NCBI GenBank assembly: GCA_903915225.1
Contig: CAIWSB010000089.1
Coordinates: 69,835-127,032, forward strand
Length of the DNA: 57,198 bases
Direction: 5' to 3'
Source of the DNA: an uncultured Candidatus Woesearchaeota archaeon
Lineage (GTDB): Archaea > Nanobdellota > Nanobdellia > Woesearchaeales > B29-G15
Under the pieces are notes generated by a model that made no database searches, had not been told where the DNA came from, and was given only the letters and a program-made list of their open reading frames with translations. Positions 16,063-56,872 of this stretch are shown in pieces; the stretch's first letter is position 1, and each line of letters starts with the position of its first letter. Both the position numbers and the translations under genes were made by a program.

Positions 16063-16436
16063 AGCCTATTTTCACCTCGTCTCTATTTATTCGGCTATCT
16101 TAGTAAAGGCGTACAGAAAGGCTCTTAGAACAACCCTTAACTCGAGTGTTATTTATAAATCTTTCGTTGACGACAACTGGATTCAAAACTACTGGGGAGT
16201 GGTTATATAGTTAATATATATGTATATAATATAGAGAACCAATTGGGCACCAATGGAGTTAAAATACATCCTTTCTCGAGGGCAGCAACAATAATGGCGG
16301 CCATCGGAGCTATCGCTCCTCCCGAGGCACCCCGCTGGGGCCATCCCTTACCTCGGCGGCGCCATTGTTGCTGCATCGAAAGCAATGTCTCTTTCAGCAA
16401 AAGCTTTTAATAGAATAGCCTCTTCCGACGCCTGGG
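16063..16436. promoter_or_regulatory. Intergenic region with S-layer promoter, second TATA cluster and RDD promoter
   Basis: This 374-base gap holds, from left to right: the S-layer Shine-Dalgarno (GAGGTGA on the minus strand, about 16073-16079, spaced about 10 bases from the ATG); a strong S-layer TATA (GATTTATAAATA on the minus strand, about 16151-16163), giving a leader of roughly 65 bases; an AT-only stretch (about 16204-16234) that reads as TATA on both strands; the structured element at 16282-16374; and a TATA-like box (AGCTTTTAATAGA, about 16400-16412) about 30 bases before the RDD gene. Confidence 0.6.
16282..16374 (+). repeat. Structured element, copy 1 (three-way junction with bulged closing stem)
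   Basis: A 15-bp closing stem pairs 16282-16299 with 16360-16374, interrupted only by a 3-base TAA bulge in the left arm. Inside lie a perfect hairpin (GGAGC at 16306-16310 with GCTCC at 16315-16319) and a larger one (CCGAGG at 16322-16327 with CCTCGG at 16351-16356, enclosing CCCC/GGGG at 16330-16340). A second copy with the same closing stem and bulge is at 47467-47592. The strand shown is that with the bulge in the 5' arm; the real transcript direction is not known, though an AT-rich TATA-like stretch lies about 50-75 bases to the left. Confidence 0.7.
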
Positions 16437-40920: not shown

Positions 40921-41955
40921 ATGCCGCAGAAAATAATATTCCTCGAAGAATTCGGTAAGGCTTTTATTCCCAAGAGATTCAGGCCGAAAATGGGTGAGTA
41001 CCTCATGAAAGCGGGGTACACAGAGGTCCCTTACAAACTCTATGGGGTATTCTTCTACCTCAGCCTTCTCATTACTGGAGGAATTTTCATCACACTAGTA
41101 AATCCCCAGATGAGATATATGCCACTGTTTAAGGTACTGGTCTTGTCTTTCCTTTCCTGGGCAGGCATCCAGCTCTTTGTTGTCTTCTTTATAGGCCTAA
41201 TCTATTATATTTACATGGAGCAAAAAATCTACATGCGCACCCAGAAGATGGAGGATGTGCTTGAGGATTTTCTCCACCTAGTCTCAGAAAACCTTAAGGG
41301 GGGCTTAACACTTGAGGAGGCACTCTGGGATGCTGTTCGTCCGGAGTTCGGGGTTCTTTCAAATGAGATTAAGCTGACTGCAAAGAAGGTAATGACTGGT
41401 GAGGATGTGCCAGATGCCCTCACTGACTTTATGATGAAATACAATTCGCCAATGCTCACACGCTCATTCAACCTCATAGTGCAGAGTATCTCAGGCGGAG
41501 GCAAGCTCTCTGACATAATTGATAAGGTTATCCGAAACATCATTGAAACCAAGCGGTTGAAGAAGGAGATGGGGGCAACCAATCTAACATATGTAATCTT
41601 TATTTCTTTCGTAGTTGTGGTTGTCACGCCGGCCTTGTTCACTTTGTCCAACCAGTTCCTGAGGATCCTCGGGCTTTTCTCTGTTGCCAGCACAGGGACG
41701 ATGGTAGCCTCAAGCAATTTTCCGCTCAGCTTTGGCGCAGTGAGCATTGACCCCTCATTATTCAAGAAGTTTTCAATATATGCCATTGGCACAATCTCTG
41801 TATTCGCTTCAATGATCATCTCAATAATACGCAGAGGCAGCATAAGGGCAGGGATTAGGCTAATTCCAATCTACCTGATTGCCTCTTTTGTAATGTATGC
41901 ATTGATATCCCAGATAGCTCAGACGGTGATTGGGGCATATTTCGGACTTCAGTAG
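40921..41955 (+). CDS. FlaJ/TadC-like membrane platform protein, second
   Basis: 344 residues. It begins directly after the stop codon of the preceding gene. Two membrane segments (about 42-105) are followed by the F domain (MEDVLEDFLHLVSENLKGGLTLEEALWDA ... FNLIVQSISGGGKLSDIIDKV) and about three more membrane segments toward the end. This is the second half of the heterodimeric platform. The 3' end overlaps the convergent coiled-coil glycosyltransferase gene by 7 bases, which marks the end of the pilus operon and the start of the radical SAM cluster. Confidence 0.9.
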   Translation: MPQKIIFLEEFGKAFIPKRFRPKMGEYLMKAGYTEVPYKLYGVFFYLSLLITGGIFITLVNPQMRYMPLFKVLVLSFLSWAGIQLFVVFFIGLIYYIYMEQKIYMRTQKMEDVLEDFLHLVSENLKGGLTLEEALWDAVRPEFGVLSNEIKLTAKKVMTGEDVPDALTDFMMKYNSPMLTRSFNLIVQSISGGGKLSDIIDKVIRNIIETKRLKKEMGATNLTYVIFISFVVVVVTPALFTLSNQFLRILGLFSVASTGTMVASSNFPLSFGAVSIDPSLFKKFSIYAIGTISVFASMIISIIRRGSIRAGIRLIPIYLIASFVMYALISQIAQTVIGAYFGLQ

Positions 41956-44900
41956 GCCTTGATGCGGCTCATCTCCTTTTCCAGCTCGGCAATTCGGGCC
42001 TCGATGTCGTAGAATTCCCTGAATACTTCAGCCTGGATTAGCAGTGCGTTGAGTTTGTTCTTCAACTCCCTAATACGTGAGATCTGTTCACTTTGGCTGG
42101 CGTATGCATCGCTGAGCTTGCACTTGATTTTTACAAGCTCATTGTACGCACCTGAAGAAACAAGGAGTGCATCTCTCTTCTGGTTGAGGAATGCCATATA
42201 AGACTCATCACGAGCATTTCTTTTTTTCTCAATAATTTTCTCGAGGTCCAAAATTCTATCATTAATTTTCTTTAGCTTGCCAGCAATTCCGCATGCCTCG
42301 AGCTTGGATACCCATTTTGACTCAATCTCTTTAGATTGCGTCCAAAGGGTGGTGATTTCGGAAGAGAGCTTTTCCATTTCTTTGTTAGTTGTAGAAATAG
42401 GCTTGTCTAATTTTGATTTAAATTTAATGTATGCCACAGAATTCTCAATTTGTTTTAACTCAGATTCCATTCGCTCAACTATTATTTTAATTTCATCCAA
42501 CTGTTTCCCTTTTGCCAGCCTTTTAGTATCTAGGTCGCTAACTATCTGAACAAACTCAGTTTGTTTTTTGGCGTAGCTTGGGTTTGCTTCCAGCTTTCTA
42601 ATCTCAAAAAGCAACTTGTCCTTATCCCGTTCTAGTGGGGCCAATTCTCTTGTCCATATTTCATCCCTTTCAGCTTTTAGCTTTTCCAAATTGGATTTTT
42701 CTGCTTCAGTCAACACGCTTTTGGATTCCAACAGTGAAATGGCAATTCTCACAGACTCAAAACGAGTTTTGATTAGATTGTTGAATTTGGTGTCAACCTG
42801 CGACATTTGCGCCTTAACCTTTTCAATGAGCACAAATTGGCCCAATTTAGCTTTTTTCTTTCCAAACTCACTCCTCTTTTCATTAAGCTCTGCCTCAATA
42901 TTTATGTATTCTTCCCAAAACCCATTCTTCCTCTGAGTTGCCTCTCTCAATGATTCCTGCAAGGCAATTATTTTTGAGTGGGTTTTATTGCCTTTTAGCC
43001 TAAGTTCACGCTCTTTAATTAGCTGCTCCGCTTTTTCCTGTAGTTTTTTCTGACAGGTCCAAACGAGTTCCCTTTTTCTTTCGAGTTCTTTTGCCAGGGC
43101 AATATGTTTGCTCCGTTCTTCAACTAGTCCTTTTGACTCAAACAAGAGGTGTTGCTCATAATAGAGCCTGTTCTGCTCTAAGGTTAACGGTTTTAGAACC
43201 TTGTTGAAATGGGCGTTTAAACGTACATTGAGCTTTTCTATTTGTTTGTCCAATTTTTGAAGCTCATCAATAATGCCTTTAGATTTGAGCAGGAGCTGCT
43301 TTTTAGCCTCAAGATTTTCAATCTCCATGCTGTTATTAGGCATAAATAGTCCGAGAATCTCATCCTGAATATGCCCAAATCCCAGCTGGATGTTCTTACT
43401 AATGAGCAAGCCTTCTTTTTGTTTAACCCGTGCCTTGTGTTCATTCACAACCTCTGCCAACTCTTTGGCTTTAAGGTATTCTTTTGAAGGAAAGTTCTGC
43501 TCAGTGCCCAACGTAATATCAAACAATGAATTCTCCGGCAGCAAACGTTGATTCGCTAATTGGAGTAATTGCGAACCAGTGCCCATCAACTGGATTGTGT
43601 ATGCTTTGAGCCCGATTAATTCATTTACTGTCAATTTTGCCTCGTCTGGACTTTTAGCCAAAACCCTGAAAAGCAAAGGCAGGTGCCTGGATTTTAGCAG
43701 CCTCAATGCAGGCAATAATTGCTCAAGGGTTTGCCTTGAGTCTAGGTTGAAAAGATAGACAATAGGATATTTTTCAAGGCAAGGAAGCATTGCCCCAGGT
43801 ATTGGCTTATCAACAGAAAGGAAAATTTCAGTTGATCCAGCAACTTTAAGCCATTCAAGGAGCAGCTGAAGGTCCTGCCAGCCAAAGCTGCCTTTGTCTA
43901 TGAATATACGCCCCAGATACTCCTGCATTTTTACCTCTGCGATAGCAGCAGTAAGGTTTTTTCCTTCAAGGGCTATTTTGGGCAATGCTGATGCAGGGCC
44001 AATTAATTTCCCAATTTCAACTGCACCATTCCTCATCTTGAGCTTAATCAGTGATTCGGAAATTTTTCTCAAGCCTTCACGGTTATTAGAAACCAATGAG
44101 AGTATTCCCATCCGAATTTTTTCGTGATTCCAATCCTCTATTCCTAAGCAAAGCCCTGCTTCACCAAGGGTTCGCACACGTTTTTTCTGATCGTCACCTT
44201 CCCTATAAACGGGAAGCAGTATTGATGGCACCTTGTAGTGCAGCAGCTCATTACTCGTGTTCCGGCCAGCATGAGAAATCACCAAATCAACAGATTGCAT
44301 AAGTGATATGAGTTTTGGCTCGTATCTGGTAAACTTAACGCCATCCATGCCAATGAACTCCTTATGGCCGCGGAACAATGGTCCAGAGACTGCAATGATG
44401 TTAAGATTCATCTGCTGTTGAAGCTGCTTGCATGCTTTTATGGATTCGGAAAGCAGTGACTTCGTTTCTGGTTCATAACCACCACTCCCGCAGGTGATGA
44501 GCAAATTCAACTTTTCCTTGGTTATTCCATATTTTTTCCTGACTGATGAATCCCATTGCTCCTCCCTAATTATGGTCCCAACAAAGTTTACCTTTGTATT
44601 GGAACAAGAAGAATCTGGTTCTGAACCTATGAAAACAGTATCAAACTTTGGAAGCAAGGTTTCAACCAAGTCTGTCTTATAGCCATCTAGAATCATGAAC
44701 GCCCGTACTCCTCGCATTTTGCAGTCAATGAGAAACTCTTCTGGGCAGATAGTATCGAAGAAAATCAAATCGGGATTAAAGCCGGAACATATGCCTTCAA
44801 GGATTTTCAGGTTTGATGGCTTGGGCACTGCAAAATCAAAATCCTCTGGTGCCAAGGTTGAGTCAAAATCTTTTGGAATCTTAACAAAGTGGAGTTTGTA

Positions 44901-45047
44901 CCTGTAGAAGAAATCCACAAAATCAGAGTTTGTGACAAACAGGAGGCGTGCAGCAGGCCACTGCCTTCTCAACGCACGAGCAATGCACACCAGGCGGTTG
45001 ATGTGCCCCAGTGAAACCCCGTTGACTGCATAAAACAATATGTTCAT
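41949..45047 (-). CDS. GT28-like glycosyltransferase fused to an alpha-beta domain and a long coiled coil
   Basis: 1032 residues. Residues 1 to about 345 are a GT-B glycosyltransferase of the MurG/UDP-glycosyltransferase kind: the N-terminal loop NGVSLGHINRLVCIARAL and the nucleotide-binding SHAGRNTSNELLHYKVPSILLPV (about 258-280) are both present. Residues about 365-520 are a set of alternating strands and helices (IFIDKGSFGWQDLQLLLEWL, then IFLSVDKP) that look like a degenerate radical SAM-type barrel with no cysteine cluster. From about 575 to the end there is a nearly uninterrupted charged coiled coil. It overlaps the start of its upstream neighbour (radical SAM-GT2 protein) by 4 bases and is the last gene of the cluster. 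The predicted role is glycan transfer, possibly with the coil as scaffold. Confidence 0.75.
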   Translation of the reverse strand: MNILFYAVNGVSLGHINRLVCIARALRRQWPAARLLFVTNSDFVDFFYRYKLHFVKIPKDFDSTLAPEDFDFAVPKPSNLKILEGICSGFNPDLIFFDTICPEEFLIDCKMRGVRAFMILDGYKTDLVETLLPKFDTVFIGSEPDSSCSNTKVNFVGTIIREEQWDSSVRKKYGITKEKLNLLITCGSGGYEPETKSLLSESIKACKQLQQQMNLNIIAVSGPLFRGHKEFIGMDGVKFTRYEPKLISLMQSVDLVISHAGRNTSNELLHYKVPSILLPVYREGDDQKKRVRTLGEAGLCLGIEDWNHEKIRMGILSLVSNNREGLRKISESLIKLKMRNGAVEIGKLIGPASALPKIALEGKNLTAAIAEVKMQEYLGRIFIDKGSFGWQDLQLLLEWLKVAGSTEIFLSVDKPIPGAMLPCLEKYPIVYLFNLDSRQTLEQLLPALRLLKSRHLPLLFRVLAKSPDEAKLTVNELIGLKAYTIQLMGTGSQLLQLANQRLLPENSLFDITLGTEQNFPSKEYLKAKELAEVVNEHKARVKQKEGLLISKNIQLGFGHIQDEILGLFMPNNSMEIENLEAKKQLLLKSKGIIDELQKLDKQIEKLNVRLNAHFNKVLKPLTLEQNRLYYEQHLLFESKGLVEERSKHIALAKELERKRELVWTCQKKLQEKAEQLIKERELRLKGNKTHSKIIALQESLREATQRKNGFWEEYINIEAELNEKRSEFGKKKAKLGQFVLIEKVKAQMSQVDTKFNNLIKTRFESVRIAISLLESKSVLTEAEKSNLEKLKAERDEIWTRELAPLERDKDKLLFEIRKLEANPSYAKKQTEFVQIVSDLDTKRLAKGKQLDEIKIIVERMESELKQIENSVAYIKFKSKLDKPISTTNKEMEKLSSEITTLWTQSKEIESKWVSKLEACGIAGKLKKINDRILDLEKIIEKKRNARDESYMAFLNQKRDALLVSSGAYNELVKIKCKLSDAYASQSEQISRIRELKNKLNALLIQAEVFREFYDIEARIAELEKEMSRIKAY

Positions 45048-47389
45048 CTTAGGTCATTCCTGCTCACCGCATAAGGCTTTCCAAAGAGATCGTACATTCT
45101 TAGGAATACATTCATATTCAGGGCCAGGAACTCGGAAAAAATATTCACTGTGGTAACTTTTATCTTAAGTTTCTTGGCAAGCTTCAAACTTCCCAGGGCA
45201 TAGTAGTATAAAGTGCCTGAGAGCGGTAGGCTTGTCTCATCAAACATGTATTTGTTTGGGTCCTGGCTTAGTGGAAGGTTCAGCTCAATACGCTTAACCC
45301 CAAATTGATGCAGCAATGCAACTGTTTCCTCCAAACTGGCGAAATTGAGCCTAGAGATTAGTAGCCGGACCTTAAGTCCCTGGTTCAATAATATTAAGTT
45401 CTGGATTGCCTTTAGGGCCGCATCAAACGAGCCTTTCTTGTTCATCAGGATATCATGATGTCCTGGATTTGCCCCACTGAGGTTAATTGTAAAGCGGTCC
45501 ACTCCAAGTTTCACTAGGTCAATGCAGTCCTTGAGGTTAGTCAGGGATTCTGCTTCTGTGTCAATCCCTATATGCCTGAAGCCTTTTGCTGATTTTATCA
45601 TCTCCTTGATATCTGGGTGCAGGAGAGGATTTCCACCCACAAAGGTCACCAATTTGTCACCTTCACCTGTAAACAACTCGAGCTGTTGCTTAACTTCCTC
45701 AAGAGAGCGCTCCTTGCCTGGCTTCTTTCCCAGATACTTAAAGAAAACGCTGTCATTAATTGTGGCATCATTCACCTGGATTGTACATTTCTTTTGATGT
45801 ATCCAGGGTTTGTAAACCTCATATAAAGAAGGATCAACAAACTTTTTATAGAATATCCTGGCGTTATATTTCAGAGCCTTGTCCATGCCATCCTTTGACG
45901 AATATACAACAGGATGGTGCTGGTGATAACCCTTTGCCTGTGGGTTTAGCACAAATCTCAGCCATTGTAACCTATAGCCAAGTTCCTGGTCCTCGATGCT
46001 CCAGAAGACAAAGCTCTCGTCAATGAGTCCTGCTCCCAACATATGTTTGCGCCTAACTGAAAGGTTGTTGGTGTAAATCATGTGCCACGGTGCATGGAAA
46101 TTTGATGGGCGGTCCTCGCACCACTTGAAGAAATCCTCGCGCATGTCAACCCTGCTGGGTATGCGCTTTATCTGGTCAAAGTCGTTGAGTATTATCTCTG
46201 GGTTAAGGGTTGCTTGGATTTCTGTGTTTGTGTGCATATCCAGGCGCTTGCCAATGACAACTGCATCATGGTTGTATTTCTTTTTGTAGAACGCATGGCT
46301 TCTCATGTGTTCTTCTAGGTTCTTTGGATCACAAATCACATCCGAATCCAGATATAGCATTATTTCCCCATTTGCGTATAGCGTACCGATGTTTCTGGCT
46401 CGTCCGGGGCCATAGCCCAGATCATCCTGGAGGAAATATCGCAGGCGGAATGGCGGATTCAGACGCGTTATCATTTCAGAAGTGTCATCTGTGCTGCCAT
46501 CATCCACAACAATTACTTCGAATTGCTCTGTTGGCAGGGTTTGGTTGAAAAGCGAGGTTAGGGTGTTTTCAAGTATTTTTGAGCGGTTGAATGTTGGTAT
46601 TATTACACTCATGGCCGGTTTTTTATTGATGTTTTTCCGGTTGTCAAACAGCAGCTCATGCCCCTCTTTCTTGCCTGTTTTCCTACCACGCTTCACCCAA
46701 CTGCTGTTGTAGAACTTCATTGAGAATGGTGTGAAGCGGGGTACAAGCAAGATCTCTAGCTCTGCCATCTTAGCGAGTGCCTTGCTTAGGTGTGGTACTG
46801 CATCGGGTATTTTTGGCACATAACGCTCGAGCACAGCATACTCTTCTGGGAGCGATTCTGGGTAGAATATCTGGATTTTTTTTGCTCCTAAATCTCCAAG
46901 AAACTCAACTGTCTTGTCGAGTGCCTTAAGGTTTTCGATTATTAATGGGACCTTCACTATTAAGTCAAACCCTGTAGCGATAACATTTTTGAGGCCAATT
47001 AGAGCCTCCCTAAAGGCGTCCTTTGAGCCAGTGGCAAAGTTGTGAATCTTAGCCTCGTGGGAATAAATGTCTATATAGAATCCAATAATTCCAGAGCGTT
47101 TTAGCTGCTCAACAAGAGGTTCATAAGCCAGTACGCGGCCGTTGCTCTCAATCCAGGGTTTAAAGCCATATGCCTTGACCAGTTTGATAATATCAAAAAT
47201 GTCCTCGCGGAGAAGCACTTCTCCCCCTACTAGAATTACCTCAGAGTAGACTTCTTTCCTCAGCTTCTGGAGCTCCTGCTCAATGTCAGGGATGCCTCTA
47301 TGTGGACATTTCTTGTCCATGAATCTGCATAAAGCGCATTCATTGTTGCACCTATCCCCAACAAGCAAAGTAGCCTGAATTTTAACCAC
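45044..47389 (-). CDS. Radical SAM - GT2 glycosyltransferase - cysteine-less radical SAM-like fusion protein
   Basis: 781 residues in three parts. Residues 1 to about 215 are a radical SAM barrel with C14, C18 and C21 (DRCNNECALCRF) and a GGE motif (VILVGGEVLL). Residues about 259-480 are a GT2 glycosyltransferase with MSVIIPTFNRS, VVDDGST (294-300) and the metal-binding DSD (348-350). Residues about 533-781 again read like a radical SAM barrel, with LVTFVGGNPLLHPDI (about 580-594), but the cluster cysteines are replaced: the expected positions hold A542, D546 and F549. The GTG start at 47389 follows a TATA-like stretch (AAATTAAATAATCC on the minus strand, about 47411-47424) and is probably leaderless. 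Substrate unknown; sugar transfer and radical chemistry on the same molecule is the simplest idea. Confidence 0.8.
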   Translation of the reverse strand: MVKIQATLLVGDRCNNECALCRFMDKKCPHRGIPDIEQELQKLRKEVYSEVILVGGEVLLREDIFDIIKLVKAYGFKPWIESNGRVLAYEPLVEQLKRSGIIGFYIDIYSHEAKIHNFATGSKDAFREALIGLKNVIATGFDLIVKVPLIIENLKALDKTVEFLGDLGAKKIQIFYPESLPEEYAVLERYVPKIPDAVPHLSKALAKMAELEILLVPRFTPFSMKFYNSSWVKRGRKTGKKEGHELLFDNRKNINKKPAMSVIIPTFNRSKILENTLTSLFNQTLPTEQFEVIVVDDGSTDDTSEMITRLNPPFRLRYFLQDDLGYGPGRARNIGTLYANGEIMLYLDSDVICDPKNLEEHMRSHAFYKKKYNHDAVVIGKRLDMHTNTEIQATLNPEIILNDFDQIKRIPSRVDMREDFFKWCEDRPSNFHAPWHMIYTNNLSVRRKHMLGAGLIDESFVFWSIEDQELGYRLQWLRFVLNPQAKGYHQHHPVVYSSKDGMDKALKYNARIFYKKFVDPSLYEVYKPWIHQKKCTIQVNDATINDSVFFKYLGKKPGKERSLEEVKQQLELFTGEGDKLVTFVGGNPLLHPDIKEMIKSAKGFRHIGIDTEAESLTNLKDCIDLVKLGVDRFTINLSGANPGHHDILMNKKGSFDAALKAIQNLILLNQGLKVRLLISRLNFASLEETVALLHQFGVKRIELNLPLSQDPNKYMFDETSLPLSGTLYYYALGSLKLAKKLKIKVTTVNIFSEFLALNMNVFLRMYDLFGKPYAVSRNDLR

Positions 47390-47599
47390 CCAAGAAAGTT
47401 GACACTTTTTGGATTATTTAATTTTTTCTATGGTGAAAGTCAAGCGAAGAGTAATATTCTCCTTAAGCAGCAGCAATAATGGCAGCCGTGAGCGGGGCCC
47501 CCTTTAGGGGTTAGCTCACCGTGCCCGCTGGCTCCATATTAGTCACCGCTTGGTACAACTATCCTCGGCCCCTGCGGCGCCATTGCTGCTGCAAAGAGG
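47390..47599. promoter_or_regulatory. Gap within the radical SAM cluster holding a promoter and the second structured element
   Basis: A 210-base stretch. On the minus strand AAATTAAATAATCC (about 47411-47424) lies about 25-30 bases ahead of the GTG at 47389, a likely promoter dividing the cluster into two transcription units. The rest is dominated by the structured element at 47467-47592. Confidence 0.5.
47467..47592 (+). repeat. Structured element, copy 2
   Basis: The closing stem pairs 47467-47483 with 47579-47592 over 14 bp with the same TAA bulge as copy 1 (16282-16374). Compared with copy 1, the base pair at position 7 has changed from A-T (16288/16368) to G-C (47473/47586), a compensatory change. 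The first inner hairpin is longer (GTGAGC at 47488-47493 with GCTCAC at 47514-47519, and CCCC/GGGG around a TTTA loop). The second arm shares the CCCGCTGG, CTCGG and GGCGCCATTG stretches with copy 1 but is longer. It sits between the stand-alone SPASM gene and the radical SAM-GT2 gene. Confidence 0.7.
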
Positions 47600-47962
47600 T
47601 TATTTCTCTTTTTTATTCACTGCGCCAACTCGCTTCAGGTAAGGTTCTATCTCATCCTCTTTGCCAATCTCTCTCAAGAAATCCAATATCTCTTCGTCGC
47701 TGATTTGAGGTGTGTCATAGCCTTTGCAGTGGAGACATTTAGGAAAATCAACTTTCGTGCGGACTTTGTCAAACTCACCCCGGATGTGGCACAGCCTTAT
47801 CTCATTTGCTTCGTCCCCGTACCATATCTCCCTGAATGGCTTATCTTTCAGGTTCCCCAGGGAGAGGTTCATCATGCCATCAAAACAGCAGATTGTGACA
47901 CTGCCATCCCACATTATTGTGGGGGTTTTAAAGGGACCAGAGCAAGGCCTACGGTTACTCAT
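47600..47962 (-). CDS. Stand-alone SPASM domain protein
   Basis: 120 residues consisting almost entirely of a SPASM-type auxiliary iron-sulfur domain. It starts MSNRRPCSGPFKTPTIMWDG, then SVTICCFD (two adjacent cysteines), GNLKDKPFREIWYGDE and CLHCKGYDTPQISDEEI. SPASM domains normally form the C terminus of a radical SAM enzyme and hold one or two extra clusters. The same sequence pattern occurs as the N terminus and the C terminus of the protein at 50661-52229. It overlaps the 90-residue gene upstream by 8 bases, so it is probably made together with it. It probably works with the SPASM-less radical SAM protein at 49953-50657. Confidence 0.82.
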   Translation of the reverse strand: MSNRRPCSGPFKTPTIMWDGSVTICCFDGMMNLSLGNLKDKPFREIWYGDEANEIRLCHIRGEFDKVRTKVDFPKCLHCKGYDTPQISDEEILDFLREIGKEDEIEPYLKRVGAVNKKEK

Positions 47963-48230
47963 CGGGATTCACCTTTTTCTTGTTCAGCCGCTGCGAATCC
48001 CAGACATTGTCATCATAGGATATAAGCCTAAAATGCTTTTCTTTCTTTGAGAAGAGATTATTCTCACTAATAGCTTTGTTGAACAGCTCATTTGCCTCCC
48101 TCTGCTTTCTTTCATGCGAGACAGCATCCAGCCTTTTCAGCCAAATAATGTCTCTGGTCCATTCCTCATCTGGGAATGAGATGGATGCAAGAAGTTCCAT
48201 CTGCGCCTTGTTGGGTTCCTCAATGCTCAT
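47955..48230 (-). CDS. Small protein resembling the link between a radical SAM barrel and its SPASM domain
   Basis: 91 residues. It starts with ATG at 48230 in a 4-base overlap with the stop of the double radical SAM gene. The segment RDIIWLKRLDAVSHERKQREANELFNKA is similar in pattern to the piece between barrel and SPASM in the protein at 50661-52229 (KDTIFLRVMGDLEPSQQ...LHEKIIRASKHF). The C terminus is basic and directly precedes the SPASM gene in frame order. It is likely a detached bridging segment. No independent motif is visible. The longer frame starting at 48317 lies inside the upstream gene and is not used. Confidence 0.6.
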   Translation of the reverse strand: MSIEEPNKAQMELLASISFPDEEWTRDIIWLKRLDAVSHERKQREANELFNKAISENNLFSKKEKHFRLISYDDNVWDSQRLNKKKVNPDE

Positions 48231-49963
48231 TTTCCCAGCCACCCCGTGAGCTCGCCTAGTCCGTTGTAGAATCGCTGGATGTCCTCCTGATAAACGCACA
48301 TTCTGCACCCGCGACACAAGAGTGGCTTATTTGGTTTATTGTAGAGCCCCAGCACTTTTTCCCTATAAGCTTTGTACTCTTGGGAATTCCACATCTCTGT
48401 AAAGCCTCTGCCTTTAATGTGGAAGATAGTTGGATGAAGGCAGCATGGCGCAATCTGCCCATCAAGATGAACTTGAGTTTCAAAGAAAGGCACCAAGCAG
48501 CCGACTTTATTGAAAATTCGCTTTGTATGGCTACCCGATAACGTCTCTTGATGGTTGAGCACATCCAGATAATGGTAGAAATTGTTGGCCAGGCTGTATC
48601 TTTCAGCAGCTTCCTGAGCTTCCACTACAAATTTGTTGACTTCCCTAATCTGCTTTGGCTTGAGGAGCAAATAATCTGTAAGCGGGGTTGTCTGGAGATG
48701 CCCAAGGTAAACAGCAGAGGCTCCGTTCTCCCTAGCAAAATCAACCATTTTAGGTATCTCATTATAGTTGATTGAGCAGATGGGGTTCATTATCCTAATC
48801 TCTGGCTTGGCAACACCAAGTTTTGCCTTTAGTTGTTTTATGTGCTTCAGATTGTTGACAACCCGAGCAAACTCGGTTTTAGGAACTGAATGAATCTTTG
48901 CATAGGTTTCTGCTGTTACTCCCGAAACATTTAGCTCTAGCACGTCTGCTCCGAGGCGAACAATTTCACGAATTTCTTCAGGGCTAGGCCGGGTTAGGTT
49001 TGTGAAAACCTGAACCTGGAGCCCGAGTCTCTTAATGAGACGCAGCATTGCCATGAGATCTGGGTGTGTTGTTGGCTCGCCTCCACCACCAAGCTGTATG
49101 TAACGACAGCCGGTTTTTGCAGCCTCCTCAACATAACTCTTCAAGAGAGTGAAATCAATTCGCTGGCTGTGCCAGGATGCAGGCCTTTTGACAAGCTCCT
49201 TGTCATATTTATGGGTTTTGAAATAATTATCCTCTTCTTTGAGGAGATGTGGGGAATGATGGTAGCAGAACACGCACTGGTGGTTGCATGTGTTTGTAAT
49301 CTCAAATTGAGTTACAATCGGCCCAGTGAACATATTATTGAGCAGGATTGACAGCTCGCGCTGGTAATTGGCGAAATCAATCTGGAGGTTATGTTTTTTT
49401 CCATAATCCCATACTTCTTTTATTTGAGGGAAAGCCTCAGCAAGGTCACAAAGTAACTCAAACCTGAATTCATGAACTCCAAACCCCTTAAAAAATTCCA
49501 CTGCTGAAAGGAGGCAATCCGAATTATCACTAGTTATAGTGTAATCCAGGGTGCGTTGAAGGCCCGCCAAGCGCATATTCACCAAACCCGCAATTGCCTC
49601 ACGAAAACTCCCCTGAACGCCGGTTGCAGCATCATGCTCAAGCTCACGGTAATCCATGAAAGCAACAAGAGCTTTCACACCATTGACAGCTAGTGCATCT
49701 GCAAGGTGGTTTTTGGCAAAAAGCCGGCCATTAGTTCTTATTGTTGTTTTAAACCTAAGGTGTGCTGCAGCCTCAATCAGTTGCGTTGATTCAGGGTGAA
49801 GTAAAGGTTCTCCACCAGCCAGTGTGAGCTCATTTGTGTGTAGCCTTACCTCCTTCATTAGCTTCAATGCATCACCATATTTTATTGCTGCAGCTGGTTT
49901 CCTGCGCAACTCATTGCACAGATTGCATTTATTATTGCATTCGTTGAAGAGCTTAAGCTCCAT
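48227..49963 (-). CDS. Double radical SAM protein with C-terminal SPASM domain
   Basis: 578 residues. The first barrel has C9, C13 and C16 (NECNNKCNLCNEL) with AGGEPLLHPE; it is short, about 200 residues. The second has C226, C230 and C233 (NTCNHQCVFCYHH) with LGGGGEPTTHPD and is complete. The C-terminal about 75 residues are a SPASM domain (GCLVPFFETQVHLDGQIAPCCLHP and CRGCRMC). Two radical SAM barrels with complete CxxxCxxC motifs in one chain are rare. The ATG at 49963 is chosen because the longer frame lies inside the upstream gene; it overlaps that gene's stop by 11 bases. The reaction is unknown; peptide or glycan modification is likely for a SPASM enzyme. Confidence 0.85.
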   Translation of the reverse strand: MELKLFNECNNKCNLCNELRRKPAAAIKYGDALKLMKEVRLHTNELTLAGGEPLLHPESTQLIEAAAHLRFKTTIRTNGRLFAKNHLADALAVNGVKALVAFMDYRELEHDAATGVQGSFREAIAGLVNMRLAGLQRTLDYTITSDNSDCLLSAVEFFKGFGVHEFRFELLCDLAEAFPQIKEVWDYGKKHNLQIDFANYQRELSILLNNMFTGPIVTQFEITNTCNHQCVFCYHHSPHLLKEEDNYFKTHKYDKELVKRPASWHSQRIDFTLLKSYVEEAAKTGCRYIQLGGGGEPTTHPDLMAMLRLIKRLGLQVQVFTNLTRPSPEEIREIVRLGADVLELNVSGVTAETYAKIHSVPKTEFARVVNNLKHIKQLKAKLGVAKPEIRIMNPICSINYNEIPKMVDFARENGASAVYLGHLQTTPLTDYLLLKPKQIREVNKFVVEAQEAAERYSLANNFYHYLDVLNHQETLSGSHTKRIFNKVGCLVPFFETQVHLDGQIAPCCLHPTIFHIKGRGFTEMWNSQEYKAYREKVLGLYNKPNKPLLCRGCRMCVYQEDIQRFYNGLGELTGWLGK

Positions 49964-50657
49964 TTTCCAACTCCATGAATTTCTCATAAACCCAGTTCTG
50001 TTTGAGAAGCTCAACTCGCCGTTCATTGGAGAGCAGGGGCCAGGCATCTGCAAGGTTCAACTTTACCTCGTCCTTTAGGAAACTGCTCCAAAACTCCACA
50101 AACTCCCTGCACTCTGCTGAATTTTCTTCCATAATTATGAACTGGAAGATGAACCGAGGGAACTTAAGATGCTGGCGTTCACGCTCCTTTACGAAATACA
50201 TTATCATCTGTTTAGCATTATCAAAGTCACCGCCACGGCGGATTGCCTTGTGGGTTTCTGGGTTCATTGCGTCAAGAGAGAAAGTAATCCGGGGCAAAGT
50301 CTCACCCAGGCTCAGCATAAATTCGATCATTGGCTTGGTGAGCAAGGTGGCATTTGTGTGAAGGTCAATATACGCGTTCTTACCCTTGATTTTTTCTGAG
50401 GCATAAGCAAGCATCTCCCTGAAGTCTGGATGCAGCATGCTTTCCCCCACCCAGAAGAGCTTGAGTGCCAACGGCTCAGCTCCGAACTCCAAACCATCTA
50501 TTGCCCGCTTAAAAACCTCCAAGTCCATAAATCCTTTTGGCACCTTGTGCGGGTTCTCAATTCCGAGCAGGGCCCTGGTGCACATTATGCAATCGCAGTT
50601 GCAGTAGTCAGTAGGCTCTATCAGAACATAGCGTCCGCGAAAGCCTTTATCCCACAT
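49953..50657 (-). CDS. Radical SAM protein without SPASM domain
   Basis: 234 residues. The barrel has C19, C23 and C26 (DYCNCDCIMC, with an extra cysteine at 21), LKLFWVGESMLHPD as the GE motif, and the family lines IDLHTNATLLTK and ITFSLDAMNPETHKAIRRGGDFD. This is the same family as the N-terminal domain of the 1548-residue protein and the barrel at 50661-52229. The chain ends soon after the barrel (WSSFLKDEVKLNL), where the relatives continue into the bridging helix and a SPASM domain. It starts 3 bases after the preceding gene. It probably pairs with the small genes at 47600-48230. Confidence 0.85.
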   Translation of the reverse strand: MWDKGFRGRYVLIEPTDYCNCDCIMCTRALLGIENPHKVPKGFMDLEVFKRAIDGLEFGAEPLALKLFWVGESMLHPDFREMLAYASEKIKGKNAYIDLHTNATLLTKPMIEFMLSLGETLPRITFSLDAMNPETHKAIRRGGDFDNAKQMIMYFVKERERQHLKFPRFIFQFIIMEENSAECREFVEFWSSFLKDEVKLNLADAWPLLSNERRVELLKQNWVYEKFMELENGA

Positions 50658-50660
50658 TGT

Positions 50661-52229
50661 TTATACAAAATCCCTCAGCATCTTATAGTTTTTCATTCTC
50701 CTCAGGAAAGGCGCAATCTCATGCATCTGACCTGTGTTTTGGAGATACTCCACAATTTCAGAATCTGTCATTTGTGGTGAATCAAGGTTAGGGCAGCCAG
50801 CACAGGTCTGCATACCTGCAAAATCGCCTCGGATGTGGTTCAAACGGCGATTAACCATTGTATCCAGGTTCCAGAGCCAGCTGAGCTTGAGCTCAGATAC
50901 ATTTCCAAAAGAGAGGTTCATATTGTAATCGTAGCAGCATACCCCCACTTCTCCATCCCATCTGATAACAGGAGTTTTCCAAAGCCCTGCGCAAGGCCTT
51001 CTTATGTACTCTTTTTGTTCCTTTGCGGGTGATTCAGCAGGAGTATTAAAGTGTTTTGAAGCACGAATAATTTTTTCATGCAAGCGCCATGAATCTGGCT
51101 GCTGCGAAGGCTCCAAATCACCCATAACCCTTAGAAAGATTGTGTCTTTCAGAAACGGTGGCTCGTAGCCTGCATTTATCTGGAATGGGAGGTTGAGTGT
51201 TTCAAGCTCACGCTTCCAGTAATCCACAAAGCCCTCAGCTTCGTGGGCGTTCTCAGGCATAACAATGAATTGGATGACTATCACTGGCCTTACTGTTTTA
51301 CGCATTTTGTTAAGCGGGTTCTTAATCAGTTCCGCTTTCAGCTTCAAGCACTCCTTAAGATTTTCAACAACCCTGTCAAAGTCTCCCCCACAACGGATTT
51401 TGTCATATGTTGGCTTTGTCAATGCATCAAGTGAAAACACAAGGTATCCAAGTGACCGGGCAGCCTCTTCTGAAAAGAGATATTCACGCATCTCCTTGGT
51501 CATAAGGATTCCATTTGTGTGGAGCTCCATATACTCAAATATCCTATTATTGAAGGGGTAAGTTTCAAGAAAATCCCTAAACAGGGTTTTATCTTTGGTG
51601 GATTGAATCTTATTGAATCTCTTGTCATACTCAGGATTAAAGTTGAGTTTGAACGCGAATTTGAGCATGTCCAGCAGCTTGGGGTGCAGCAAAGGTTCTC
51701 CATACCAAAAGGGGGTAATTGCTTTTACCCTAAGCTTGGAATTAAGCAGATCCAACATGATTTGTTCCCACATTTCCGGACTCATGTAGCCCTCTTTCTG
51801 GGGATTCAAAGTGCGTTTGCACATCACGCACTTCAAATTGCACTTTGACGTAACCTCAATTAACAGGGATTCAATTTTATTCCAACCTGTGCAAACCCTG
51901 TCAAGGTAATTGTCAACCAACTCTTGGCGATCAATCTGCTTCAAGTAGGAAATGACTTCAGCATCGCTGATTTTTGGGGAGCTGAACCCAGGACAATTGG
52001 CGCAGTTGATGTATGGTGCTTTTGGATCCCCAAGCTTAGAGAACTCTCCCATTACGTGTCTTAGCCTTAGTTCATCTGCCTTGAGGCCATACCAGATCTC
52101 ATCGAATTCTTGACCTTTGAGGTTCCCAAGCTTATAGCTCAGATGCTTGTCATGGCAACACACGGTGAGATTTCCTACTGAGTCTATTGCCGGAGTCTTC
52201 CAAGGTCCTGCGCAGGGTCTTCTGTTCAT
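50661..52229 (-). CDS. SPASM - radical SAM - SPASM protein
   Basis: 522 residues. The first 95 residues are a SPASM domain (RRPCAGPWKTPAI, LTVCCHD, GNLKGQEFDEIWYG, NCANCPGFSSPKISDAEV). A radical SAM barrel follows with C130, C134 and C137 (SKCNLKCVMCKRT), FWYGEPLLHPKL and the FSLDALTKPTYDKIRCGGDFD line. The last about 110 residues are a second SPASM domain (IRRPCAGLWKTPVI, GVCCYDYN, CAGCPNLDSPQM). A SPASM domain at the N terminus is unusual; it may serve the SPASM-less radical SAM protein encoded just upstream, with which this gene overlaps by 4 bases (ATGA). The iron-sulfur content would be high (three to five clusters). Confidence 0.88.
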   Translation of the reverse strand: MNRRPCAGPWKTPAIDSVGNLTVCCHDKHLSYKLGNLKGQEFDEIWYGLKADELRLRHVMGEFSKLGDPKAPYINCANCPGFSSPKISDAEVISYLKQIDRQELVDNYLDRVCTGWNKIESLLIEVTSKCNLKCVMCKRTLNPQKEGYMSPEMWEQIMLDLLNSKLRVKAITPFWYGEPLLHPKLLDMLKFAFKLNFNPEYDKRFNKIQSTKDKTLFRDFLETYPFNNRIFEYMELHTNGILMTKEMREYLFSEEAARSLGYLVFSLDALTKPTYDKIRCGGDFDRVVENLKECLKLKAELIKNPLNKMRKTVRPVIVIQFIVMPENAHEAEGFVDYWKRELETLNLPFQINAGYEPPFLKDTIFLRVMGDLEPSQQPDSWRLHEKIIRASKHFNTPAESPAKEQKEYIRRPCAGLWKTPVIRWDGEVGVCCYDYNMNLSFGNVSELKLSWLWNLDTMVNRRLNHIRGDFAGMQTCAGCPNLDSPQMTDSEIVEYLQNTGQMHEIAPFLRRMKNYKMLRDFV

Positions 52230-55200
52230 TTTCTGAAAAATAGGAGTATTGGTAGCTCAAGAGGCTTGTGCTCTTTTGTCAGGCTTTCCCCAAATAGGGA
52301 AATTCCCTTTTTGTGCTTGGCGGTTCCTTTAATTTTGAAGACAAGGGAATTGCTTTTTCCTTTCAGTTTAACACCTTTTGCGTGCCAATGGGTCACAAAA
52401 GTGGAGCGGTTTGGTTCAAATGGCAACAACTTTGTTTCAATCTCTTTGTTGTTAATTATGAGAGCCACATCTGAGGAATTTTTGGGGTCCTTGCCTTCCT
52501 TATGGGAATGTGAGCAAACCTTAGCAAAAATATCAATGCTGCAGGGGCCAGTGACCGAAGAGTCGAAATGGTATTCAAAAAACCCATAATCATCACCAAA
52601 GGCTAAGGCAAGCCCTTGGCTGTATTGTTCATCCCCCCGCCAAATCGCTGGCCCAAATCTGTTCCAGGAGGCAGAGTGCCATTTGAGCGGATCAATTAAA
52701 GCCAAATGCATATCGGGAGTTGAAGGTATTGGGGCTTTAGTGTCTTCTTTTTGCTTGAATTGTTCTACGTTTATCAGGTTTCCTCCGTACTTGAAAACAA
52801 TATCCTTTAGGTTAGCTTCACCTTTCATCAGGGAATTAATAAATTTAGAATTAACATGGGATGAAAACACTATGGCATCAACATAAGGATTAATAAAAAT
52901 TCTCTTCGCTTTTACAGTGTTGGTTCCGTGATATACCACAATATTCTTTGCTTCTTTGTGTCTCTTTTTTACATCTTCAAATACCTCAAGGAGGTTGCAG
53001 TTGAAATCCTCAAGCCAGATTCCAACATTTAAATCCTCGTTTAATCTGGACTTCTCAAAATTCAAATCTAACAGAGATGCACCAGGGAGTAATAGTCTAT
53101 TTGCCAATGGATAAACCTCAACGGATTGAGGATATTTCATATAGAACTGGGGAATAGATTGAGGGTATTTCACATAGAACTTTGGGATAATGAGGGATGC
53201 TGACTCGGACTTAAACAGATTTCTTAGGGATGAAGAGGATTTCCCATGGTCTACACTTGAAGAGAGGGTTATATCGCCATAGATTAATTGCATATTTATC
53301 TTAGGAAGTTTGTTGGGTTTCAAATTAGGATTGATTATATTACCTCCGTACTTGAAGCTGAGATTATCGAGACCAGCCCTCCCATCCAAGAGTGATTTTA
53401 GAAGAGAGGGTGTGGCATCCGAGGATTGGATTAGCCCGTCTACATTGGGGTTTAGCAGCAATCTCTCTGCTTCAGTTTGGTTTTTGCCATGGTATACAAC
53501 ATAATTCCTAACCCCGGGGCTTGTGTTTTTAGCATTGGCGAAAACCTCCATTAGGTTGCACTTTTGACCCTCAAACCAGATCCCAACATTTGCTTCGAAG
53601 TTGGGTACAATGGGGAATATGTTTCCATCTTGGAAGGAAAACTTTTTCACAGCTGAATAATAGCTCCGGGCTAGGTCATACACACCCGAGGGGTAAGCCC
53701 TATAGAACTTGGGGATAATGAGGGATGCTGACTCGGACTTAAACAGATTTCTTAGGGATGAAGAGGATTTCCCATGGTCTACACTTGAAGAGAGGGTTAT
53801 ATCGCCATAGACTAATTGCATATTTATCTTAGGAAGTTCGGTGGGTTTCAAATTAGGGTTGATTATATTACCTCCGTACTTGAAGCTGAGATTATCGAGA
53901 CCAGCTCTCCCATCCAAGAGTGATTTTAGAAGAGAGGGTGTGGCATCCGAGGAATAAATTAGCCCATCCACATTGGGGTTTAGCAGTAATCTCTCTGCTT
54001 CAGTTTGGTTTTTGCCATGGTATACAACATAATTCCTAACCCAGGGGCTTGTGTTTTTAGCATTGGCGAAAACCTCAATAAGATTGCACTTTTGACCCTC
54101 AAGCCAGATCCCAATATTTGTTTCATGATTGGGCACAATAGGTAAGATGTTTCCATCCTGGAAGGAAAACTTTTTCACAGCTGAATAATAATTCAGAGCC
54201 AAGTCATAAACCCCGGAGGGGTAGGTCTTATAGAACTTCGGGACAATTAGGGAGCAAGAAGATGCAGGTTTGAACCCAAAAGGAGAGATCTCCATCACAA
54301 TTCTCCGCTCTGATGAAGATATCTTTCTCATGCTTTTTGTGTGGTTAACTATGAAGTTTCCTCCAAAAATAAAGCCAGTTCCAGGGGTAATTATAGTCTT
54401 CAAATTGGGGAATTCCTTGAAGAAACCCAATGAACTGTTGACTGATACCACAAAATCAAGCTCAGCATTTAACAAATCTACCTTAAGCCTCTTTAATTCA
54501 TACTCTATCAGAAAGATTTTTGTATCATGATTTAAAGATTTAATCTCATCAACAACCCCAAAAGCATCGTTTTTGAATGAGAAATTATTAACAATCACAG
54601 ATCCAGCTTTTTTTATTGCCTTAATCGCAGATTCAAGTGAAGTGACATTAAAATCAAGAGATTGGCAACTCAACTGTTCCTGGAGTTTCCTCGCAAGTGA
54701 TATCTCATTAACAGAAACATTCTTATCAAAAATTTTGGGGATTACACTCACTATCGGCTTTGGATTGTTAAGAATTGTAGTCTCAAGGGTATGCAAAATT
54801 ATTTGAGAAATAAAAGAGGGTTCTGCTCTCTTAGATTTCGCTTTGCCTTCCAAAACATAGCATCTTTTTCCGTTTGCTACAAATTCCTTGAAATCATATC
54901 TCTTCCTAAATTCTGGGTTTTGGTGCCATACAAATGAAAAATTTCTAATGTCCTGAAACACAAGTACACGGGGGAACTTTTTCCACAGAATATTATGGAG
55001 GACCAAATCTATTTCGCTTTTGTAAGAACTTGTTTTTACTCTTTTTTCATTTAGTTCTTCTAATACAATCTTAAGATGAGGAAAACTATTCTTAAGCCGT
55101 TTTGCTAAGCCAAACGTATCTGAGTCCATATTAGAGTAATTAACAAGGACCGCTAATGGAATTTGCTTCGATTCTATAAGGTCAAATAACTCTTTCTCCG

Positions 55201-56872
55201 GAGAAAGATTGCTATTGAAATAATGCGGATCGTAAACCCCATCCGTATTCTCTTCATTGTCCCTTAACGAGAAACTCTCAATAAGATCAGATTCGTGTAA
55301 AAGCATTTTTATGGGGTGCTGTTTCAAATTGAATATAGGGGGTGAAACCACAACTATTGGTGTCCTGATGTTTGATTTGAAAAGATTTCTATCTAGCCCA
55401 AAGTCTAGGTTCAAGAAGAAGTTTTTCTCAAATCTTTCATCCCAATAAAAAACTTTGACTCCCAACTTGCGTCCTAGCTCCACAGCATTTGATCCAGGAT
55501 ATTTATCACAAATAATCACCGTTTTGATTCCTTCATCTTTAATGAGAGTTACAAGTTTTTCAACTCTCATTTTCAAAATATTCAAATCGAGGAATTTAAT
55601 CCTCCCTTTCAAAGAAAGAATGGAAGCGAGCTTCCCGCAATCCTGGAGAACTTTACCCAATAATTCGTGGTTTCCTCTAAAGTGTATCCTAGGCATTAAA
55701 AGTAAGATAGGAAAAGGGGATGGAGTATGCAGTGAAGGAACAGAATCGCTCAAGAATAGGTTAAGCTTATCCCAAAGAGTGTCTAATGCAATAATTTCGT
55801 CTATTTCGATGGACCTCAGCGCCTGTTCTATTGGACCATCAAAAATAAGTATATTCTTGACCAGCGGATCAACCTGTTTTAGGGTATAGAATATGTCAAG
55901 GAGATTATCCAAGTTTTGGGCTGAACTAAATCCCAAATTAAGTCTGGTATTTTCATCCACAAATTCCGCAAGGAAGTGTTTTGAAAACACAGCATTCGGC
56001 GTGTTCAAATCAAGAAAGTTCTTGCACCGATTGGCGAGTGCATCGGGCATTGTTTGAAGCTTTGAATATATTCTCTCTGTTGAACCCTTTTTCAACCTGA
56101 AAAAAGGAATGATTAAGTTGAAATACTCTGATTTATTTTCAGAAGTTTCTTTTTCAGAAGCAAGAGAGAAGACTACCCGGGCATCTGCTGAGAAAAGGTT
56201 TGAGGTGTCCAGATGTCTGATAAATAAGCAATCGTTGTCTCCCGGGTAATCTTTTTCTGAAAAAACAAGTGTGGGGGTTATGCCAAATCTAATAAGATAA
56301 TTGCTCCAGTATTTGATGAACGGGTCTTTCTCTTTCAGGTTGTGAGACATGACGATAAATTGGAATACCAACAAGGGCTCTTGCCTTGAGTATTTACTTC
56401 TTGCCTCAATGAAACCCTTGATGTTCTGCAAAACTTTCTCAAAGTTACCATTCCGCCGAATCTTGTTATAGGTTTCTGCTGTGGCTGCATCAAGAGAAAG
56501 CACGATTCGTTTCATAATGTTGGAGTCTAAGCTGAAAATTTTTTGAGTCACAAGGGGAGTTAAAAAAGTCGCGTTGGTGTGAATTTCAATTCGTATTTCT
56601 TTATTCGCCAATTTTTTTGTGGCATATTCAACCATCTCCACAAAGGAAGGATTCATCAGAGGTTCCCCAAGCCAAAACGGAACAAGGGTGCCTGCCTCAA
56701 ACTTTGAATTTGCAAGTTCATCGATTATCTTCCTGAACAATGAGAAATCAAGATGGTGCCTCTGGTTTACAGGGGTTTTTCCAGTGTCGCACATTACGCA
56801 ATCAAGATTACAATGGTTTGTGAACTCTAGAGTTACGTACCCCTCTTTATTTGGTAAAACCCAATGCTTCAT
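52226..56872 (-). CDS. Giant radical SAM protein with tandem B12-binding-like repeats and beta-rich C-terminal domain
   Basis: 1548 residues. Residues 1 to about 230 are a radical SAM barrel with C21, C25 and C28 (NHCNLDCVMCDTG) and FWLGEPLMNPS. Residues about 300-870 hold two or three Rossmann-like stretches (for example FPILLLMPRIHF ... GIKTVIICD). Residues 874-1049 and 1050-1225 are two nearly identical 176-residue repeats, and 1226 to about 1370 a diverged third. Each repeat reads IGIWLEGQKCNLIEVFANAK, VVYHGKN, LLLNPNVDGLI..S, LLDGRAGLDNLSFKYGGNII, which follows the line of a cobalamin-binding radical SAM N-terminal domain, but the usual GEGE is replaced. The C-terminal 170 residues are beta-rich, galactose-binding-like. 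There is no SPASM domain; the next gene begins with one. The promoter is at about 56900-56911. Confidence 0.8.
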   Translation of the reverse strand: MKHWVLPNKEGYVTLEFTNHCNLDCVMCDTGKTPVNQRHHLDFSLFRKIIDELANSKFEAGTLVPFWLGEPLMNPSFVEMVEYATKKLANKEIRIEIHTNATFLTPLVTQKIFSLDSNIMKRIVLSLDAATAETYNKIRRNGNFEKVLQNIKGFIEARSKYSRQEPLLVFQFIVMSHNLKEKDPFIKYWSNYLIRFGITPTLVFSEKDYPGDNDCLFIRHLDTSNLFSADARVVFSLASEKETSENKSEYFNLIIPFFRLKKGSTERIYSKLQTMPDALANRCKNFLDLNTPNAVFSKHFLAEFVDENTRLNLGFSSAQNLDNLLDIFYTLKQVDPLVKNILIFDGPIEQALRSIEIDEIIALDTLWDKLNLFLSDSVPSLHTPSPFPILLLMPRIHFRGNHELLGKVLQDCGKLASILSLKGRIKFLDLNILKMRVEKLVTLIKDEGIKTVIICDKYPGSNAVELGRKLGVKVFYWDERFEKNFFLNLDFGLDRNLFKSNIRTPIVVVSPPIFNLKQHPIKMLLHESDLIESFSLRDNEENTDGVYDPHYFNSNLSPEKELFDLIESKQIPLAVLVNYSNMDSDTFGLAKRLKNSFPHLKIVLEELNEKRVKTSSYKSEIDLVLHNILWKKFPRVLVFQDIRNFSFVWHQNPEFRKRYDFKEFVANGKRCYVLEGKAKSKRAEPSFISQIILHTLETTILNNPKPIVSVIPKIFDKNVSVNEISLARKLQEQLSCQSLDFNVTSLESAIKAIKKAGSVIVNNFSFKNDAFGVVDEIKSLNHDTKIFLIEYELKRLKVDLLNAELDFVVSVNSSLGFFKEFPNLKTIITPGTGFIFGGNFIVNHTKSMRKISSSERRIVMEISPFGFKPASSCSLIVPKFYKTYPSGVYDLALNYYSAVKKFSFQDGNILPIVPNHETNIGIWLEGQKCNLIEVFANAKNTSPWVRNYVVYHGKNQTEAERLLLNPNVDGLIYSSDATPSLLKSLLDGRAGLDNLSFKYGGNIINPNLKPTELPKINMQLVYGDITLSSSVDHGKSSSSLRNLFKSESASLIIPKFYRAYPSGVYDLARSYYSAVKKFSFQDGNIFPIVPNFEANVGIWFEGQKCNLMEVFANAKNTSPGVRNYVVYHGKNQTEAERLLLNPNVDGLIQSSDATPSLLKSLLDGRAGLDNLSFKYGGNIINPNLKPNKLPKINMQLIYGDITLSSSVDHGKSSSSLRNLFKSESASLIIPKFYVKYPQSIPQFYMKYPQSVEVYPLANRLLLPGASLLDLNFEKSRLNEDLNVGIWLEDFNCNLLEVFEDVKKRHKEAKNIVVYHGTNTVKAKRIFINPYVDAIVFSSHVNSKFINSLMKGEANLKDIVFKYGGNLINVEQFKQKEDTKAPIPSTPDMHLALIDPLKWHSASWNRFGPAIWRGDEQYSQGLALAFGDDYGFFEYHFDSSVTGPCSIDIFAKVCSHSHKEGKDPKNSSDVALIINNKEIETKLLPFEPNRSTFVTHWHAKGVKLKGKSNSLVFKIKGTAKHKKGISLFGESLTKEHKPLELPILLFFRK
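53190..54253 (-). repeat. Tandem 528-bp repeat inside the giant radical SAM gene
   Basis: Two adjacent copies, about 53190-53725 and about 53718-54253, are nearly identical in DNA over most of their length, with a period of 528 bases (176 codons); for example the same stretch starts at 53184 and again at 53712. Most differences fall near the part corresponding to the first 60 residues of each unit. The third copy to the left (about 52750-53190) is clearly related only at the protein level. Confidence 0.85.

Follow-up and report, generated by a model that had tools for sequence, protein, structure and literature searches.

A gene of an uncultured Candidatus Woesearchaeota archaeon encodes a protein of 781 residues in which a glycosyltransferase (GT2) domain is placed between two barrels of the radical SAM fold. 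The N-terminal barrel appears, from its motifs, to be a working radical SAM domain, while the C-terminal barrel has lost all three cluster cysteines and is almost certainly a pseudo-enzyme.

Domain layout of the fusion protein

The gene lies at 45044 to 47389 on the minus strand of the window, that is, the whole stretch of 57,198 nucleotides that was analyzed (69835 to 127032 of its contig). Its open reading frame was confirmed in the sequence and begins with a GTG start codon. The protein is made up of a radical SAM domain (residues 1 to 225), a GT2 domain (residues 258 to 515), and a second radical SAM barrel (residues 533 to 781). Pfam finds no SPASM domain (PF13186) within the 781 residues, and a separate SPASM gene lies next door. 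An earlier note on this DNA had described, without giving the strand, a fusion of radical SAM, GT2, and cluster-less radical SAM domains, and this description is borne out by Pfam, motifs, and predicted fold. A model of the full-length protein contains two confident barrels but leaves GT2 unfolded, and at a pTM of 0.37 it does not give the relative placement of the domains.

The N-terminal barrel (46715 to 47389, minus strand) matches PF04055 with an E-value of 1.1e-13 and has no SPASM module of its own. It carries an intact CX3CX2C motif, CNNECALC, at residues 14 to 21 (C14, C18, and C21; 47327 to 47350, minus strand), as well as GGE at residues 55 to 57, and so combines the barrel, cysteine motif, and GGE of a radical SAM enzyme. 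This agrees with the earlier description of it as active-looking.

The GT2 domain (45845 to 46618, minus strand) matches PF00535 with an E-value of 1.7e-27 when the whole protein is searched. Its motifs are intact, with DDGST at residue 296, DSD at 348 to 350, ED at 466 and 467, and YHQHH at 488, and it thus has both the GT-A profile and the DDGST, DXD, and ED motifs; the embedded GT2 domain with intact DDGST and DSD that had been noticed before is confirmed. Its nearest relative in the PDB by phmmer is chondroitin synthase (E = 4.9e-33). The relationship is to the first GT domain of that enzyme (2Z86/2Z87), with which it aligns over 235 residues and has the metal and ED motifs in common, and also to EpsD. 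However, chondroitin synthase contains two GT2 domains, whereas the Woesearchaeota protein has one, with radical SAM barrels on both sides. Against NF041875 the domain scores 145 bits, under the cut-off of 370 for that model.

A radical SAM barrel without its cluster motif

The C-terminal barrel (45047 to 45793, minus strand) is the better match to the radical SAM family. Searched alone, residues 533 to 781 match PF04055 with an E-value of 2.6e-17, stronger than the N-terminal barrel, although the match begins at model position 22, past the cysteine motif. AlphaFold2, run on a 15-row alignment drawn only from this stretch and the contig of the related locus, predicts a barrel with a mean pLDDT of 80. 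A Foldseek search of the PDB with this model returned 156 matches at an E-value of 0.001 or below, and each of the best 50 is a radical SAM enzyme, with SkfB, GDGT-MAS, BlsE, and the viperins at the top. The pseudo-enzyme idea of the earlier note depended on this domain being a TIM-type barrel, and the prediction is in its favor.

Where the cluster would be held, the domain has the loop NDATINDSVFFK (residues 540 to 551; 45737 to 45772, minus strand). Alignment with the other radical SAM domains of both loci places T543, S547, and F550 at the three positions of the cluster cysteines. The loss of all three had been recognized from the sequence earlier, but the replacements were then read one residue early, as A542, D546, and F549. 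The GGNPLLHPD line that had been noted as kept in this barrel is indeed present, with GGNPLL at residues 585 to 590 (45620 to 45637, minus strand) as the counterpart of the SAM-binding GGE, with the glutamate replaced by asparagine. The only cysteines of the domain are C535 and C622, both of which are kept in the ortholog described below; two are too few to provide the three thiolates that a standard SAM cluster needs. Since the domain lacks both CX3CX2C and, in both species, GGE, we do not file it as a radical SAM enzyme despite its fold.

Pseudo-radical-SAM proteins are already known as a class. The barrel is common to both domains of the fusion protein and to the enzymes of the PF04055 superfamily (SkfB, BlsE, GDGT-MAS, MoaA, and viperin); the N-terminal domain has the CX3CX2C motif of these enzymes, but the C-terminal domain is without the three cysteines and the glutamate of GGE. 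A cluster-less relative is catalogued in NCBIfam as TIGR04347 (pseudo-SAM/SPASM), and NCBIfam also contains a Bacteroidales pseudo-rSAM family. The score against TIGR04347 is 47.4 bits, far from its curated cut-off of 525, and live radical SAM domains match this model too. TIGR04347 is also a separate protein without a GT2 fusion, whereas the 781-residue protein is without SPASM. What is new here is the fusion, the conserved former cluster loop, and the recurrence of radical SAM/GT mosaics. Literature searches, which covered work outside subscription journals, returned nothing relevant on cluster-less radical SAM proteins and nothing combining Woesearchaeota, radical SAM, and glycosyltransferase, both absences being weak evidence at this coverage.

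Conservation in a second species

Candidatus Woesearchaeota AB_69_Bin_160 (contig JAFCCU010000021.1, here G002) has the one full ortholog that was found, 60% identical over the whole protein. A profile of the C-terminal domain was searched against 353 genomes of the order and 371 of the phylum (overlapping sets), and among these only the source genome and G002 gave full-length matches. The ortholog has the loop GTINDSVFF at the same place, so the cluster cysteines are missing there too, and the presence of the same cysteine-less loop in an independent genome rules out a sequencing error. The concern that other members might keep the cysteines, raised earlier as a possible refutation, is answered by the same protein.

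The C-terminal domains of the two species align over 249 residues with zero gaps, at 56% identity and a dN of 0.38. The corresponding values are 47% and 0.45 for the live N-terminal barrel, and 76% and 0.18 for GT2; dN is given alone, and dN/dS was dropped, because synonymous sites are saturated at this distance. By these values the pseudo-barrel is kept under constraint and is no less conserved than the live barrel. In the former cluster loop 11 of 12 residues are identical, compared with 7 of 12 in the live loop. Positions at the mouth of the C-terminal barrel are 65% identical against 45% elsewhere (Fisher p = 0.005), in a comparison of one sequence pair with loop boundaries drawn by hand on the predicted structure once the motifs were known; the live barrel has no excess identity at its mouth by the same test. 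The other most conserved stretch of the domain is a tail segment, residues 763 to 772, which is identical in both species. Conservation centred on the mouth is suggestive of a ligand-binding role for the pseudo-barrel.

Origin of the two barrels

Phylogenetic analysis places both barrels in one radical SAM subfamily. In a tree of 66 radical SAM domains under a site-mixture model, all four barrels of the two species form a clade (support 99/97) with one cysteine-bearing domain of a 1170-residue protein from genome G141, and in a second tree of 65 rows the four barrels fall inside a seven-row clade (96/97). The same G141 protein, with the order GT28-rSAM-rSAM-GT2, also contains the closest GT2 domain outside the genus (141 bits). 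Since the relatives retain the motif, the loss of the cysteines is derived, and the comparison places it before the two species diverged.

In the loci sampled there were 175 matches to radical SAM domains at more than 40 bits, and CX3CX2C is missing from 6 of these. The six comprise the present ortholog pair, the second halves of two split matches whose first halves have the cysteines, a partial match where an open frame ends, and a single further genuine case.

A duplication within this gene is possible from the sequences, but we do not claim that the C-terminal barrel arose as an internal copy of the N-terminal one. FastTree made the two sisters (0.93), but the site-mixture tree gave 91/45, and in the second tree the C-terminal barrel grouped with G141 (91/57) and the AU test gave p = 0.39 for the pairing of the two barrels. 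A sister relationship to the barrels of an rSAM-GT2-rSAM protein in genome G041 was likewise unsupported, as those barrels were placed elsewhere on long branches.

Radical SAM/GT mosaics in other Woesearchaeota

The earlier note knew of no described enzyme with this layout, but the layout is not isolated, as related mosaics are found in G041 and G141. The G041 protein (L040, 9868 to 12630) has the order rSAM-SPASM-GT2-SPASM-rSAM and is followed by a GT28 gene, and the G141 protein (L082, 12451 to 15960) joins its GT28, two radical SAM, and GT2 modules in one chain. Both are made from the same kinds of module as the 781-residue protein, but in a different order, with CX3CX2C kept in both radical SAM domains and, in G041, with SPASM modules. 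Further combinations occur in other families of the order: rSAM-SPASM-GT2 beside GT28-GT4-rSAM-SPASM in G236, rSAM-SPASM-GT2 near GT28 in G100, GT2-rSAM-SPASM in G130 and G131, and, in G124, one open frame that combines rSAM-SPASM-GT2-GT2 with modules of deacetylase-like, B12-binding, and radical SAM type. The G124 frame (L136, G124:C55, 1313 to 7312) runs for 2000 residues to the end of its contig, and its deacetylase-like part is DUF2334.

Another pseudo-radical SAM domain, separate from this one, was seen in genome G144 (L094, G144:C36, 11815 to 13698), where KDNNNPIFK replaces CNNNCIFC and the fusion partner is a polyamine synthase domain, BpsA_C (PF01861, E = 2.3e-27). G252 (L146, G252:C73) has a protein distantly related to the BpsA part, with an N-terminal region without CX3CX2C in which AGAEPTDHP recalls GGEP; the radical SAM profile gave no match to this region.

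Gene neighborhood

The fusion gene is joined by an ATGA overlap to a downstream gene (41949 to 45047, minus strand) for a GT28/MurG-like glycosyltransferase of 1032 residues with a long C-terminal extension (PF04101, E = 4.5e-14), the ortholog of which is adjacent to the fusion-gene ortholog in the G002 locus (L038). The genes upstream are on the same strand. The nearest encodes a stand-alone SPASM protein of 120 residues (47600 to 47962; PF13186, E = 6.9e-13; ortholog at L038 10652 to 11011), followed by a small conserved protein of about 90 residues (47955 to 48230; homolog at L038 9374 to 9631, E = 5e-27). The latter has no Pfam match and may serve the cluster as a partner protein or as a peptide substrate. 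Beyond it are a double radical SAM and SPASM protein of 608 residues with both CX3CX2C motifs intact (48227 to 50053), two proteins assigned by Pfam, namely a radical SAM protein of 234 residues without SPASM (49953 to 50657) and a SPASM-radical SAM-SPASM protein of 522 residues (50661 to 52229), and a protein of 1548 residues with an N-terminal radical SAM domain (52226 to 56872; homologs at L038 1 to 2556 and 3231 to 4250). In the last of these Pfam matches the radical SAM part only, and the protein contains internal repeats of a unit NxGIWxEG...VVYHG.

The gene order of this radical SAM, SPASM, and GT operon is kept in G002, which has two extra radical SAM genes, and in both species the cluster is bordered by the same secretion-ATPase-like and TadC-like genes, pilus-type names that are given by sequence resemblance. 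No tRNA or Rfam RNA was found near the fusion gene. A dispersed palindromic element at 47467 to 47592 (minus strand) has the arms GCAGCARCAATGGCGC and GCCATTATTGTTGCTGC around a GC-rich hairpin interior, with a fold z-score of -4.3 and no Rfam match. Its 16-mer occurs again at about 16359 to 16374 (minus strand), and exact copies number 22 in its own genome, 0 in G001, 0 in G002, and 1 in G003; the element looks MITE- or REP-like.

Possible functions of the protein

We give roughly even chances to the proposal that the protein is a mosaic enzyme from a Woesearchaeota pathway for a surface glycan or glycoconjugate, and that its C-terminal barrel has turned into a non-catalytic binding module. 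The N-terminal barrel would modify a sugar or glycoconjugate by radical chemistry, and GT2 would transfer a sugar residue. The C-terminal barrel would no longer cleave SAM, and its old active-site mouth would keep a substrate, an acceptor glycan, or a partner close to the GT2 site. GT28, which is translationally coupled to the fusion protein, and the neighboring radical SAM/SPASM proteins, including the stand-alone SPASM, may act on the same product. The earlier note had suggested a binding or pseudo-enzyme role; the pseudo-enzyme part stands on the absence of the cysteines in both species, and the binding part, the most likely function of this barrel, draws on sequence conservation. Our view of the sugar chemistry is guesswork based on context, namely the kinship of GT2 to chondroitin synthase, the GT28 gene downstream, and the recurrent mosaics of rSAM, SPASM, GT2, and GT28. 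Radical SAM/SPASM proteins act on peptides as well, and a glycopeptide, not a glycan, may therefore be the target.

A doubtful but serious alternative is that the pseudo-barrel binds no small ligand and is a structural scaffold, which either replaces a subunit of an ancestral barrel-barrel arrangement or docks the GT28 and SPASM partners. In its favor, both barrels belong to one subfamily, the identical tail at 763 to 772 could be a docking surface, and SPASM modules are encoded separately beside the gene. However, conservation is centred on the barrel mouth and not spread across the surface. Continued binding of SAM or of a non-standard metal centre, with a part in the chemistry that does not need a CX3CX2C cluster, would account for the retention of the remaining barrel pattern and of C535 and C622 in both orthologs. 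We consider it unlikely, as the domain has these two cysteines only, a phenylalanine at the third cysteine position, and GGN for GGE in both species.

The domain might also be what is left of a tandem radical SAM protein, without function and in decay, given that comparable proteins elsewhere have two live domains and a loss did occur. This is very improbable for a stretch of 249 residues that has stayed free of gaps and stops at 56% identity, with a dN below that of the live barrel and its highest conservation exactly at the former cluster loop. An error of sequencing or assembly, or a wrong domain assignment, is scarcely credible when an independent genome shows the same loop and gene order and when fold and profile both give a radical SAM barrel. 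To return to the binding module, a broader version can be offered tentatively, in which shuffled multi-domain proteins of radical SAM, SPASM, and GT modules build a glycan or glycoconjugate of the Woesearchaeota surface and, in this genus, one barrel serves as a carbohydrate- or substrate-binding module through its old mouth.

Across Woesearchaeota families, the joining of radical SAM to glycosyltransferase modules suggests a glycan chemistry of which no description was found in the literature searched, outside subscription journals. If the C-terminal barrel is a binding module, the radical SAM fold would have been re-used for binding beside a live one in the same enzyme, which would offer a direct test of the role of this fold without its cluster.
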